A model generated the notes under the pieces. It saw nothing but the letters and a program-made list of their open reading frames with translations. It searched no databases and was not told where the DNA came from. Shown piece by piece: positions 2,571 to 35,935 of a stretch of 39,326 nt of DNA. The DNA is from Pseudomonadota bacterium (GTDB taxonomy: Bacteria; Pseudomonadota; Alphaproteobacteria; UBA6615): assembly GCA_027618305.1 (NCBI GenBank), contig JAQCFD010000003.1:1-39326 (forward strand), read 5' to 3'. Position 1 is the first letter of the stretch; every line of letters begins with the position of its first letter. The position numbers and the translations under genes are program-made.

Positions 2571-3779
2571 CTAGACCCCGCTATACATGCGGCCGGGGTT
2601 GAGGACATGGCGCGGGTCGAAGCTCTCCTTCACCCGGGCCGACAGGGCCGCGAGCGGTCCCGGCTGGGGCTGGAATACATCGACCTTGCGGCGCACATCT
2701 TCCGGTGCGCGCACCAGGGTGGCATGGCCGCCGCCGTTTGCCGCGAGCACTTCGCGTATGACCGCGCCACCTGTATCGCCCCCATCGCTGCCGACGCGGA
2801 ACCAGATCAGTCCGCCGCCCCAATCAAAGAGTGCGGTCCCCGGTACACGGGCCGAGATGGCCTCCATGATATCGGCTGACTTGTCCGGCGTGACAGAAAG
2901 ACGCCAGAGCGGCGCATCGCCATCGCCCACACCTTCGACATCGCGTACCGACGCCCAAAAGGCCTGCGAGGCCTCCCGATCGAGGGTCGTGACGTTGCCG
3001 CGCGCACCCACCAACGCACGCAGCGCCTCACTGCGCGCCGCGACGGAGGGAACGAACCCCTCGACCCGGAATGCAGTGACCGGGCCCGAGACGGATGCCA
3101 AACCCGCCGGCAAGTGCGCCGCACCGGAAACTTCGTTGCTGGAATTCAGCGCCGCGGACATGATTTCAACGGCATCCGCAGCTGTCGCCCCGGACAGCAA
3201 TATTGTTTCCTCGGTCTCCGCGGCGGGCAGAACCTTGATGGTGATCTGGGTGAGCGCCGCCAGCGTGCCGAACGACCCGGTCAACAGCTTCGACAGATCA
3301 TAGCCGGTCACATTCTTGACCACCCGGCCGCCGCTCTTCACGAGGTCACCACGGCCCGTCACCGCCTCGATTCCCAGGATGTGATCGCGCGCCGCGCCCG
3401 CCTTGATACGGCGCGGACCGGCAAGGTTGCAGGCGATCATGCCACCCAGGGTGCCGCCGTCGCCACCGTACAGCCGCGCGAAACGCGGCGGCTCGAAGGC
3501 CAGCATCTGTCCCTTCGCCGCGACGGCGGCCTCGATCTCGGCGAGCGGCGTGCCCGCCCAGGCGGAGAGGACCAGCTCTTCGGGCTCATACAGGGTGATG
3601 CCGGTCAGGCCGGACAGGTCGACCGCGTGGGCGATGATGCGGTTGCCGTCGCCCATGGGCCGTCCGAAGCCGCGCTTGGTGCCGGTGCCGAGAATCTCGA
3701 GCGGGGTTTCCTCGCTGCTCGCCCAGGCAATCGCTTCGACGACCTGCGCGGAGGTTTCGGGTTTGAAGGTTTCCGTCAT
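2571..3779 (-). CDS. glcE: glycolate oxidase FAD-binding subunit
   Basis: A 402-residue protein starting MTETFKPETSAQVVEAI. It has an FAD-linked oxidase N-terminal half, with the LEILGTGTKRGFGRP segment (where the family has the flavin pyrophosphate loop) and GGDGGTLGGMIACNLAGPRR. The SGGRVVKNVTGYDLSKLLTGSFGTLA motif is diagnostic for GlcE. The C-terminus ends in DPRHVLNPGRMYSGV, typical of the family. GlcE is the second flavoprotein-like subunit of glycolate oxidase. ATG 3779 is chosen because the open frame upstream of it runs into an inverted repeat. It sits between glcD and glcF on the same strand. Confidence 0.94.
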   Translation of the reverse strand: MTETFKPETSAQVVEAIAWASSEETPLEILGTGTKRGFGRPMGDGNRIIAHAVDLSGLTGITLYEPEELVLSAWAGTPLAEIEAAVAAKGQMLAFEPPRFARLYGGDGGTLGGMIACNLAGPRRIKAGAARDHILGIEAVTGRGDLVKSGGRVVKNVTGYDLSKLLTGSFGTLAALTQITIKVLPAAETEETILLSGATAADAVEIMSAALNSSNEVSGAAHLPAGLASVSGPVTAFRVEGFVPSVAARSEALRALVGARGNVTTLDREASQAFWASVRDVEGVGDGDAPLWRLSVTPDKSADIMEAISARVPGTALFDWGGGLIWFRVGSDGGDTGGAVIREVLAANGGGHATLVRAPEDVRRKVDVFQPQPGPLAALSARVKESFDPRHVLNPGRMYSGV

Positions 3780-3800
3780 ATTTCCAAGCCACTTTTGATC

Positions 3801-3890
3801 GTCGTTCCCGCGAAGGCGGGCATCCATAAAACCCGATGCAAACCCGGGCTACCTACCGTGTTTATGGGTTCCCGCCTTCGCGGGAACGAC
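3801..3890. repeat. 30-bp inverted repeat between glcD and glcE
   Basis: The left arm at 3801-3830 and the right arm at 3861-3890 are inverted copies with two mismatches in 30, around a 30-base spacer. Each arm itself contains the palindrome TTCCCGCGAAGGCGGGAA (or a near version). The family of GTTCCCGCGAAGGCGGG repeats is widespread between genes in alphaproteobacteria. It is unrelated in core sequence to the 2467-2531 palindrome, so the two gaps of the glc operon hold two different repeat families. Confidence 0.85.
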
Positions 3891-3930: not shown

Positions 3931-5424
3931 TCAGAAGCGCGGCAGATCGGGGAACGGCATCTTGCCGCGATGAATATGCATGCGGCCGAGTTCGGCGCAG
4001 CGGTGCAGGGTCGGGAAGACCTTGCCCGGATTGAGCAGCTGGTTTGGGTCGAAGGCGCATTTGACCCGCATCTGCTGGTTCAGATCATCGTCGGTGAAGA
4101 CCTCGGACATCAGGTCGCGCTTCTCGACCCCCACGCCATGCTCGCCGGTCAGGACGCCGCCCACCTCGACGCACAGGCGCAGGATATCGGAGCCGAAATT
4201 CTCCGCCCGGTCCAGCTCGCCGGGCTTGTTGGCGTCATACATGATCAGCGGGTGCAGGTTGCCGTCACCGGCGTGGAACACGTTGGCGACGCCGAGCCCG
4301 TATTTCTCCGACAGCCCCGACATGCGCTCGAGTACTTCGGGCAGGCGATGGCGCGGAATGGTGCCGTCCATGCAGTAATAATCGGGGGTCAGGCGGCCGA
4401 TCGCCGGGAAGGCCGCCTTGCGGCCGGCCCAGAACTGGTTGCGCTCGTCCTCGCTCTCGGAAACCCGGATCGAGACCGCGCCCAGCCCTTCGGCGATCTC
4501 GCGCACCCGGCCGATCAGGTAGTCCACCTCGACCGGCGGGCCGTCGAGTTCGACCAGCAGCAGCGCCTCCACATCCAGCGGGTAGCCGACCTGAACGAAG
4601 GCTTCGGCCGCCTTAATGGCGGGCCGGTCCATCATCTCCATGCCGCCGGGAATGATGCCCGCGCCGATGATGTCGGCGACGCACTGGCCGCCCGCGGTGC
4701 TGGACCCGAAGCCGATCATCAGTGCGCGCGCCGTGGTCGGCTTGGGCAGAATGCGTACCGTCACTTCCGTGATCACGCCCAGCAGGCCCTCCGAGCCGGT
4801 CATCAGGCCGAGCAGATCATAGCCTTCGGAATCCATATGCTTGCCGCCGAGACGCATAATCTCGCCGTCCGGCAGTACCATCTCGATGCCCAGGATATTG
4901 TTGGTGGTCAGGCCGTATTTCAGACAATGCACGCCGCCGGAATTCTCCGCCACGTTGCCGCCGATAGTGCAGGCGATCTGGCTCGACGGGTCGGGAGCGT
5001 AATAAAAGCCGTCCGCCTCGACCGCATGGGTGATCCCCAGGTTGGTAACCCCCGGCTGGACGACGGCGCAGCGATTGGCATAGTCGATCTCAAGCACCCG
5101 GTTGAACTTGCCGAGCCCGAGCGTGATCGCATCGGCCGCCGGCAGCGCGCCGCCCGACAGGGACGTGCCGGCACCGCGCGGGACGATCTTCACCGCATTC
5201 GCGTTGCAATAGCGCATGATCGCCGAGACCTGCGCGACAGTCTCGGGCAGAACGACAATCATCGGCATCTGCCGATAGGCGGTGAGCCCGTCGGATTCAT
5301 AGACTGACATGCCCTTTTCGTCGGCGATCACCCCCTCACCCGGCACGAAGGCGCGCATGGCCGCGACGATCTCGTCGCGGCGCGCGAGGGTCTGGGCATC
5401 GGGCTCAGGCATCAACATGGGCAT
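3931..5424 (-). CDS. glcD: glycolate oxidase catalytic FAD subunit
   Basis: A 497-residue FAD-linked oxidase. The FAD_binding_4 domain lies in the N-terminal half, with VPRGAGTSLSGGALP and the GGNVAENSGGVHCLKYG motif. The C-terminal oxidase cap includes NVFHAGDGNLHPLI and GGVLTGEHGVGVEKRD, whose histidines lie at the substrate site in this family. The tail DPNQLLNPGKVFPTLHRCAELGRM and final PRF fit GlcD. It catalyses glycolate to glyoxylate oxidation. The start at 5424 has further in-frame ATG codons at 5418 and 5412, so the first few residues are uncertain. It is the first gene of glcDEF, which is followed by palindromic repeats in both gaps. Confidence 0.95.
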   Translation of the reverse strand: MPMLMPEPDAQTLARRDEIVAAMRAFVPGEGVIADEKGMSVYESDGLTAYRQMPMIVVLPETVAQVSAIMRYCNANAVKIVPRGAGTSLSGGALPAADAITLGLGKFNRVLEIDYANRCAVVQPGVTNLGITHAVEADGFYYAPDPSSQIACTIGGNVAENSGGVHCLKYGLTTNNILGIEMVLPDGEIMRLGGKHMDSEGYDLLGLMTGSEGLLGVITEVTVRILPKPTTARALMIGFGSSTAGGQCVADIIGAGIIPGGMEMMDRPAIKAAEAFVQVGYPLDVEALLLVELDGPPVEVDYLIGRVREIAEGLGAVSIRVSESEDERNQFWAGRKAAFPAIGRLTPDYYCMDGTIPRHRLPEVLERMSGLSEKYGLGVANVFHAGDGNLHPLIMYDANKPGELDRAENFGSDILRLCVEVGGVLTGEHGVGVEKRDLMSEVFTDDDLNQQMRVKCAFDPNQLLNPGKVFPTLHRCAELGRMHIHRGKMPFPDLPRF

Positions 5425-6527: not shown

Positions 6528-7565
6528 ATGAGCGCTCAAAGCGAATTCCAGGCCGACACGGCCATCACAAGCGAGATTCCGGTGCTCGATGCGGGTGCCT
6601 ATTTCGACGGTGATGACGACGCCCTCGAGCCGCTGGCCGATGCCGTGCGCCATGCCCAGGAAGATATCGGGTTTTATTTTCTGGCCCATCACGGCGTCTC
6701 CGCGGATCTGATCGCGCGTACGTTCGACGCGGTCGGGCGGTTTTTCGCCTTGCCGGAAAACGAGAAGCTGGCGCTCAAGGTGAATGAGCACCAGATCGGC
6801 TACATCCCTCCGAAGGCGAGCATCCTGAAAACCTCGGGCATCGAGAACAACACCAAGCCCGACACCAACGAGGCCTTCCAGGTGATGCGCGACCGCGTGG
6901 CGGACGATCCGAAGGTGGTCGACGGCATCCGCTTCAACGCGTGCAATCAGTGGCCGGACGAGGACCGTGTGCCGGGGTTGCGCGCCACATTGCTCGAATA
7001 TCACGACAGCATGGAGCGGCTCGGCTGGCGCATGCTGCCGGTCTATGCCCGCGCCCTGAGCCTGCCGGCGGACGCGCTGTACAAATATTTCCGCGACCCC
7101 CACTTCATCAACCGCAACGCCCATTACGCGCCGGGCAAGGCCGAACCCGGCCAGCATGGGCTCGGCGCCCATGCCGATCACAGCTTCATGACATTCCTGC
7201 CGCTGTCGAAAGTCCCGGGCCTGCAGGTGAAGACCCAGGCGGGCGCCTGGATCGACGTGCCCCATGTTCAGGACGCCATGCTCATCAACACCGGCGAATT
7301 CCTCAACCGCTGGTCGAACGGGCGCTTCATCGCCACCCCGCACCGGGTCACGATCCCGGACCGGGACCGGCTGACGATCACATTCTTCTACAATCCGAGC
7401 GACGAAACGGTGAACACACCGTTCGCGACCTGCGTCAGCCCGGAGAACCCGCAACGTTTCGAATCGGTGACATTCCTTCAATACTTGACGGACTACGCTG
7501 AGGGGAACTACCTCCATCAGGCGGAGTATGCGCGTCGAAGCTCGGCACCGAACAACACGCCCTAA
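6528..7565 (+). CDS. 2-oxoglutarate/Fe(II)-dependent oxygenase, isopenicillin-N-synthase family
   Basis: A 345-residue protein with the DIOX_N domain (residues about 16-130) and the 2OG-Fe(II) oxygenase core. The iron ligands are visible as His215-x-Asp217 (GAHADHSFMTFL) and His272 (ATPHRVT). Arg281 in RLTITFF is the likely 2-oxoglutarate carboxylate ligand, with Thr where many members have Ser. ATG 6528 is preferred over the longer frame from 6366 because GAGGAGA lies seven bases upstream and the domain starts directly after it. The substrate is not predictable. The next gene starts 42 bp downstream in the same direction and may be co-transcribed. Confidence 0.9.
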   Translation: MSAQSEFQADTAITSEIPVLDAGAYFDGDDDALEPLADAVRHAQEDIGFYFLAHHGVSADLIARTFDAVGRFFALPENEKLALKVNEHQIGYIPPKASILKTSGIENNTKPDTNEAFQVMRDRVADDPKVVDGIRFNACNQWPDEDRVPGLRATLLEYHDSMERLGWRMLPVYARALSLPADALYKYFRDPHFINRNAHYAPGKAEPGQHGLGAHADHSFMTFLPLSKVPGLQVKTQAGAWIDVPHVQDAMLINTGEFLNRWSNGRFIATPHRVTIPDRDRLTITFFYNPSDETVNTPFATCVSPENPQRFESVTFLQYLTDYAEGNYLHQAEYARRSSAPNNTP

Positions 7566-7607
7566 CGGCCCTCACGGGCCACAACCCAAAGTATCGGAGC
7601 GCCAGGC

Positions 7608-8585
7608 GTGAGTGACTCACACCCTTGGAACCTGAACCTCGGACGACATCCGAGCCCCGACGAAGTGTCATTCGATCTTGAGCGCACGCTCTCCTCGGTC
7701 GTCGCCCTTCAGTCGCGCGTGCCGGATGACGCCTTCACGGCCCCGATCCTCGGCACCGAACGGGAAGGACAGGGCGTGGTCATCAGCGACGACGGTATGG
7801 TCCTGACCATCGGCTATCTCGTGACCGAGGCCGAGAATGTCTGGCTGATCGACAATCATGGCGGCGCCCATGCCGCCCATGTCGTCGGCTATGACCAGGA
7901 AACCGGGTTCGGGCTGGTGCAGGCGCTGGGGGTGCTGAACCTGCCGGCGATGCCGCTCGGGAATTCCGCCGAGATCTCGACCGGCGATTCGCTGATCGTG
8001 GCCGGACAGGGCGGACGCGAGGCGGCCATCAACACCCAGGTGATTTCGGTCCGCGAGTTCGCCGGTTCCTGGGAGTATGTCCTCGACAGCGCCATCTTCA
8101 CGGTGCCCGCGCATCCGCGCTGGAGCGGCGCGGCCGTGATCGACTGGTCGGGCCATCTCGTCGGGATCGGGTCGCTGTATATCCAGCAGGCCGCCGGCGA
8201 CGATGACGAGATCGACGGCAACATGATCGTACCGATCGATCTGCTGAAGCCCATTCTCCAGGAAATCAAGGATTCCGGCGGTCGCCGCCGCGCCGCGCGG
8301 CCCTGGCTGGGCATGACGACGGCAGAGGCCGAGAACCACCTCGTCGTCGCAGGCATTGCCGAAGGCGGCCCCGCCATGCGCGCCGGGGTCGAGCCGGGTG
8401 ACATGGTGTTGGGCGTCGATGGCGAGGAGATTTCAGGCCTCTCGACCCTGTTCCGCAAGATCTGGTCCCTTGGCGATGCCGGGGTGATGGTGCCGCTGAC
8501 CCTGCATCGCGACAGCCAGGTGTTGTCGGTGCGGGTCGAAAGCGCCGCACGGGCCGACTTCCTCAAAAAGCCGCAGGTCAACTAG
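7608..8585 (+). CDS. trypsin-fold PDZ protein, probable inactive serine protease
   Basis: A 325-residue protein with a DegP/HtrA-like trypsin fold (residues about 25-215) and one C-terminal PDZ domain (about 230-315, with GLxVAGIAEGGPAxRAGVEPGDMVLGVDGEEI-like spacing). The family motif LTNxHVV reads LTIGYLV, putting Tyr70 at the catalytic His position. The TDLALL motif reads TGFGLV, putting Gly100 at the catalytic Asp position. Only Ser173 of RWSGAAV remains where GNSGGP is expected. No signal peptide is seen, so it is probably cytoplasmic. It is likely a non-catalytic binding or scaffold protein. GTG 7608 is the only start consistent with the fold, and GGAGCGCCAG precedes it. Confidence 0.85.
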   Translation: MSDSHPWNLNLGRHPSPDEVSFDLERTLSSVVALQSRVPDDAFTAPILGTEREGQGVVISDDGMVLTIGYLVTEAENVWLIDNHGGAHAAHVVGYDQETGFGLVQALGVLNLPAMPLGNSAEISTGDSLIVAGQGGREAAINTQVISVREFAGSWEYVLDSAIFTVPAHPRWSGAAVIDWSGHLVGIGSLYIQQAAGDDDEIDGNMIVPIDLLKPILQEIKDSGGRRRAARPWLGMTTAEAENHLVVAGIAEGGPAMRAGVEPGDMVLGVDGEEISGLSTLFRKIWSLGDAGVMVPLTLHRDSQVLSVRVESAARADFLKKPQVN

Positions 8586-35860: not shown

Positions 35861-35935
35861 TGGTGGGCACGGCTGGGATTGAACCAGCGACCCCTGCGAT
35901 GTCAACACAGTGCTCTCCCGCTGAGCTACGCGCCC
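35861..35935 (-). tRNA. tRNA-Val (GAC)
   Basis: A 75-nt tRNA with encoded CCA. The acceptor stem GGGCGCG pairs with CGTGCCC (one G-U). The D stem is GCTC/GAGC, the anticodon stem CTGTG/CGCAG, and the anticodon loop TTGACAT gives GAC, which reads Val codons GUC/GUU. The T arm is GCTGG-TTCAATC-CCAGC. All arms fold, so it should be functional. No protein gene overlaps it; no integrase or attachment repeat was seen next to it. Confidence 0.95.

Follow-up and report, generated by a model that had tools for sequence, protein, structure and literature searches.

An HtrA-derived candidate pseudoprotease family of Alphaproteobacteria with exported and cytoplasmic forms

Proteases of the HtrA type (MEROPS S1C), among them the quality-control protease DegP together with DegQ, DegS and AlgW, combine a trypsin fold with a PDZ domain behind it. 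Earlier descriptions of HtrA-type pseudoproteases come from magnetotactic bacteria and present a special case. MamO, an HtrA-derived pseudoprotease of these bacteria, keeps the catalytic His and Asp and has Thr as its predicted nucleophile, and a residue other than Gly at position 193 disallows the active form (PMC4794232). This magnetosome protein also carries a surface metal-binding di-histidine (PMC4794232). On a broader scale, a 2008 survey of prokaryotic serine proteases counts 42 inactive homologues (SPHs), five families taken together (PMC2605481).

The window analysed here, a stretch of 39,326 nucleotides of alphaproteobacterial DNA, carries a gene whose product belongs to a family resembling all three. 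Like DegP, DegQ, DegS and AlgW, which are its best matches by sequence and structure, the family joins a trypsin fold to a PDZ domain with a carboxylate-binding loop; unlike them, it lacks His, Asp and the oxyanion Gly, does not conserve Ser and forms a separate clade, and the form in the window is not exported. As in MamO, an alphaproteobacterial HtrA-derived protein has a residue other than Gly at position 193 (PMC4794232), but the family has lost the His and Asp that MamO keeps, so that the MamO pattern of His and Asp retained with Ser replaced by Thr is not the pattern seen here. Its set of invariant residues likewise differs from that of MamO, and it is not confined to magnetotactic bacteria. 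With the SPHs it shares being an inactive member of a serine protease family in bacterial genomes (PMC2605481), whereas neither the family, its signature nor its pairing across compartments is described in the accessible passages of that survey. A full-text literature search, with most subscription journals outside its scope, returned MamO and general surveys and nothing on this family, which is apparently undescribed so far.

In our reading, the window gene encodes the cytoplasmic form within an old family of pseudoproteases that arose from HtrA in Alphaproteobacteria, and its product would have a non-proteolytic binding or adaptor role exerted through a remodelled cleft and the PDZ domain. 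We give this reading a probability of about 0.62.

The gene and its product

The gene begins with a GTG codon that close relatives keep (in one, L002, it is TTG instead). Pairwise comparison with seven close relatives gives a dN/dS of ~0.05–0.13, and the family is under purifying selection. A sequencing error or a dying gene is ruled out by these ratios together with conservation across the 137 relatives introduced below.

Pfam recognizes Trypsin_2 at residues 54–187 (E 1.5e-15) and PDZ_2 at residues 233–311 (E 2.9e-11) of the 325-residue protein. AlphaFold confidence is high (pLDDT 92.3 for the whole protein), and the closest PDB matches to the predicted structure are DegP, DegQ and AlgW, which are also the closest solved relatives by sequence. 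Superposition on DegP, which the sequence-only reading had proposed as a check, showed the HtrA fold to be retained in the model of the protease domain. Whole-protein models reach lower TM-scores of 0.5–0.6, probably because the PDZ domain is oriented differently.

That reading had also described a well-kept PDZ domain and no signal peptide, and both descriptions hold. The PDZ loop PWLG is retained, residues W233 and G235 are common to the family and the true HtrAs in the alignment, and 70 of 70 family members have a PDZ match. At the other end of the protein, the start codon and the GGAG before it are conserved in close relatives, and no hydrophobic stretch occurs within the conserved N-terminal region. 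Since the carboxylate-binding loop is kept, PDZ-mediated peptide binding is plausible.

Table 1. Coordinates of features in the window.
Feature	Position	Strand	Basis or remark
Glycolate-oxidase-like set, iron-sulfur subunit	1161–2453	minus	
Glycolate-oxidase-like set, FAD-binding subunit	2571–3827	minus	
Glycolate-oxidase-like set, FAD-binding subunit	3931–5424	minus	
2OG-Fe(II) oxygenase gene, 42 bp upstream of pseudoprotease gene	6528–7565	plus	Pfam DIOX_N, 2OG-FeII_Oxy
Ribosome-binding site CGGAG, 5' of GTG start	7595–7599	plus	GGAG at equal position in close relatives
HtrA-like pseudoprotease gene, 325 aa, cytoplasmic form	7608–8585	plus	ORF, Pfam, dN/dS
Trypsin-fold domain, aa 54–224	7767–8279	plus	Pfam Trypsin_2; domain model pLDDT 94.3; TM-score 0.80 to DegP
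Motif TIGYL, aa 67–71, Tyr70 at catalytic His	7806–7820	plus	Tyr or Phe in 137 relatives; His in all HtrA controls
Gly100 at catalytic Asp	7905–7907	plus	Gly in 137/137 relatives; Asp in all controls
Motif FAGSWEY, aa 151–157, invariant, family-specific	8058–8078	plus	F, W, E, Y conserved to ≥99%; not present in true HtrAs
Degenerate oxyanion/nucleophile loop R-W-S-G-A, aa 171–175, replacing G-N-S-G-G	8118–8132	plus	Alignment with HtrA controls
GSL, aa 188–190, where HtrA has N-T-A after conserved G-I	8169–8177	plus	97–99% in family; N-T-A in nearly all controls
PDZ domain, aa 232–311, carboxylate-binding loop PWLG (232–235)	8301–8540	plus	Pfam PDZ_2
tRNA-Val (gac)	35861–35935	minus	

Catalytic residues and the family signature

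The family set comprises 137 non-redundant relatives (<90% identity) drawn from GTDB genomes and whole-genome searches. Fifteen true HtrA paralogues, encoded in the same genomes or in related ones, were aligned together with this set as a positive control. Each of the 15 carries His in column 70, Asp in column 100 and Ser in column 173, nearly all within GNSGG. In the family, the His column holds Tyr in 133 members and Phe in four, and the Asp column is Gly throughout; the Gly193 equivalent of the oxyanion hole persists in only two and is lost in 135, and the Asn194 equivalent has become an aromatic residue in 136. Pairwise alignments with DegP, DegQ and AlgW likewise put Y70 on His and G100 on Asp. 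The sequence-only reading had assigned these two positions by eye, and a misreading of the motifs is excluded by the HtrA controls. Its further statement that Ser173 is the only triad residue left is true of the window protein and fails for the family, in which this column is Gly in 69 members, Ser in 59, Ala in five, Thr in two, and Pro and Gln in one each.

Measured against an active S1C protease, the window protein has the trypsin-like domain followed by PDZ, but not the His-Asp-Ser triad, the G-N-S-G-G oxyanion hole or the periplasmic or exported location. What marks pseudoproteases in general is present: a protease fold, catalytic residues gone, and conservation by selection. The earlier designation of the protein as a cytoplasmic pseudoprotease is well supported by its sequence and extends to the whole family. 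With His and Asp absent from all 137 relatives, the alignment indicates that the loss of catalytic residues is an old family trait rather than an oddity of the window gene. The equivalents of His57, Asp102, the Gly193 oxyanion hole and usually Ser195 are missing family-wide, most simply through one loss at the base of the family.

In place of the triad, the family has a signature of its own, LTIGYL, TG[FL]G, FAGSWEY, IGSL and GNMxVP. Positions at which the family has an invariant or nearly invariant residue that differs from HtrA include G69, Y70, G100, F151, W155, E156 and Y157, and further along A162, P167, G188, S189, L190, N205 and P232. Placed by alignment with HtrA, most signature residues would sit in loops and strands forming the active-site cleft. 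Mean conservation is 0.63 in the protease domain against 0.54 in the PDZ domain, with 27 of 178 columns against eight of 81 conserved at 95% or more. Such a signature goes further than peptide binding by the PDZ domain alone would require, and suggests that the old cleft has a specific ligand. Because the replacement residues are named and invariant, they are open to functional tests by point mutation.

The strict conservation of residues in the old cleft could also be taken to mean that the protein is still an enzyme, one that uses Ser173 or another cleft residue (such as Tyr70, His169 or Glu156) and a non-classical mechanism to catalyze hydrolysis or some other reaction. In keeping with this, 81% of the family retains His169, which lies four residues ahead of Ser173. 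However, no column of the family alignment has His above that figure, which leaves a rescue by another His without a candidate; the Ser173 column is Gly or another residue in 78 of 137 members; and the oxyanion Gly is lost. Together these leave no invariant nucleophile/base pair of the serine-protease type, and we regard continued catalysis as improbable. D96 was considered as a substitute Asp and rejected: it is well kept in the family, but is also Asp in most true HtrA controls.

As an alternative, the protein could be a plain client-holding chaperone in the cytoplasm, of the DegP(S210A) type, whose protease domain would serve only to scaffold an oligomer and whose PDZ domain would bind unfolded proteins. 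HtrA variants without proteolytic activity do retain chaperone activity (PMC11642142), and the family retains both the fold and the PDZ domain. A scaffold alone, however, does not account for the family's own invariant residues where the active site used to be, and the protein has only one PDZ domain; we consider this alternative unlikely.

Our preferred reading remains a binding or adaptor protein, one that, we infer, cuts nothing and acts as a binding module. In the mechanism we propose from conservation, a fixed ligand or a protein segment would occupy the remodelled cleft, and C-terminal or extended peptides would be recruited by the PDZ domain. The cytoplasmic copy would then be an adaptor, client holder or sensor, an exported paralogue would do the equivalent job in the periplasm, and the interaction partner would not be encoded next door.

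Exported and cytoplasmic forms and their distribution

In a rooted tree built without the triad columns and with 14 true HtrAs, the split between the family and the true HtrAs has 99% support and a long stem, so that the family forms a single clade separate from the sampled true HtrAs. Within it, exported forms lie at the base, signal-peptide-less forms are nested, and the signal-peptide label switches once or twice. The 35-row sub-clade containing the window protein has a support of 97–98, the pure cytoplasmic clade a modest 74–80, and a slightly larger clade enclosing the latter 94. By this topology, the exported form is the older and the window protein represents the nested form, and the cytoplasmic form probably has a single origin.

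Signal peptides were called by a hydropathy rule and by-eye reading. Under the simple hydropathy rule, 26 of the 28 genomes with two copies pair one exported with one signal-peptide-less copy. As to the two exceptions, by-eye reading suggests that L153 is exported, and the N-terminus of L172 is short and may be truncated. A second member occurs in the genome of the window itself (L101, G000:C215:17395-18342), 43% identical, with no triad and with a signal peptide clear by eye. Divergently upstream of this second copy is a UvrD-like helicase gene, an arrangement also seen around several other exported copies.

That exported and cytoplasmic copies occur in pairs is unusual and calls for an explanation. 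Tentatively, the family may form a class-wide pseudoprotease system in which the HtrA cleft has been turned into a strictly conserved ligand site and the two paralogues of a pair sense one kind of signal from opposite sides of the inner membrane, a proposal we hold to be possible rather than probable.

The family is present in 101 of 377 good alphaproteobacterial genomes (~27%) and in 70 of 263 genera, and a phylum-wide sample yielded only two members outside Alphaproteobacteria. Matches also came from metagenome-assembled genomes (MAGs) that carry beta-, gamma- or deltaproteobacterial labels, and from one planctomycete. Named hosts include Azospirillum and plasmids of Rhizobium, Neorhizobium and Phyllobacterium. 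Annotated copies go by 'S1C family serine protease' (NCBI; Rhizobiaceae plasmids) or 'signal protein PDZ'; the former label implies an active protease, which the family sequences do not support. About a quarter of the sampled Alphaproteobacteria, including plant-associated Rhizobium and Azospirillum, thus carry a conserved, inactive HtrA-like family that is annotated as a protease. Two streamlined, complete-looking genomes of 1.2 Mb (G115 and G345) each retain a member, in G115 the exported form, and retention in genomes of this size hints at a useful function.

Gene neighbourhood

The gene upstream of the window's pseudoprotease gene encodes a 2OG-Fe(II) oxygenase, in the same direction and at the spacing given by the sequence-only reading, which suggested a shared pathway and proposed the neighbour's conservation as a check. 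The oxygenase adjoins the pseudoprotease gene in 10 of 14 relatives with at least 60% identity (L004 and L006–L014). It is not adjacent in the other four (L001, L002, L003 and L005), three of which belong to the window's own genus, nor at any relative below 60% identity. The association therefore amounts to local synteny, and a shared pathway is not supported by the comparison. In one relative (L010:3724-5842), the pseudoprotease gene is preceded by a tandem pair of 2OG-Fe(II) oxygenases with 50% and 72% identity to that of the window, and differential loss of an ancestral tandem pair is therefore likely. In another (L008:434-1407), two reading frames share the oxygenase and the pseudoprotease has its N-terminal part out of frame, through MAG error or decay.

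A pathway joining the two proteins, with the pseudoprotease as adaptor or substrate for example, would draw on the short gap, the common strand, the lack of any terminator-like site found between the genes on that strand, and the neighbour's presence in most close relatives. The relatives in which it is not adjacent, and the involvement of two divergent oxygenase copies, both carried by L010, make such a pathway very improbable in our view.

Clustering of all ORFs around 93 loci found no family-wide neighbour, only synteny within sub-clades. The close group has glycolate-oxidase-like and amino-acid ABC transporter genes nearby; other sub-clades have EamA transporter and PrfC genes, queuosine genes, or UvrD (gene names outside the window come from sequence reading). 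In two Neorhizobium loci (L190 and L192), a signal-peptide-less member lies between a DUF992/hypothetical gene and a gene of the glycerate kinase/hydroxypyruvate reductase type, and the parallel between these glycerate-type neighbours and the glycolate-oxidase-type neighbours in the window is possibly a coincidence.
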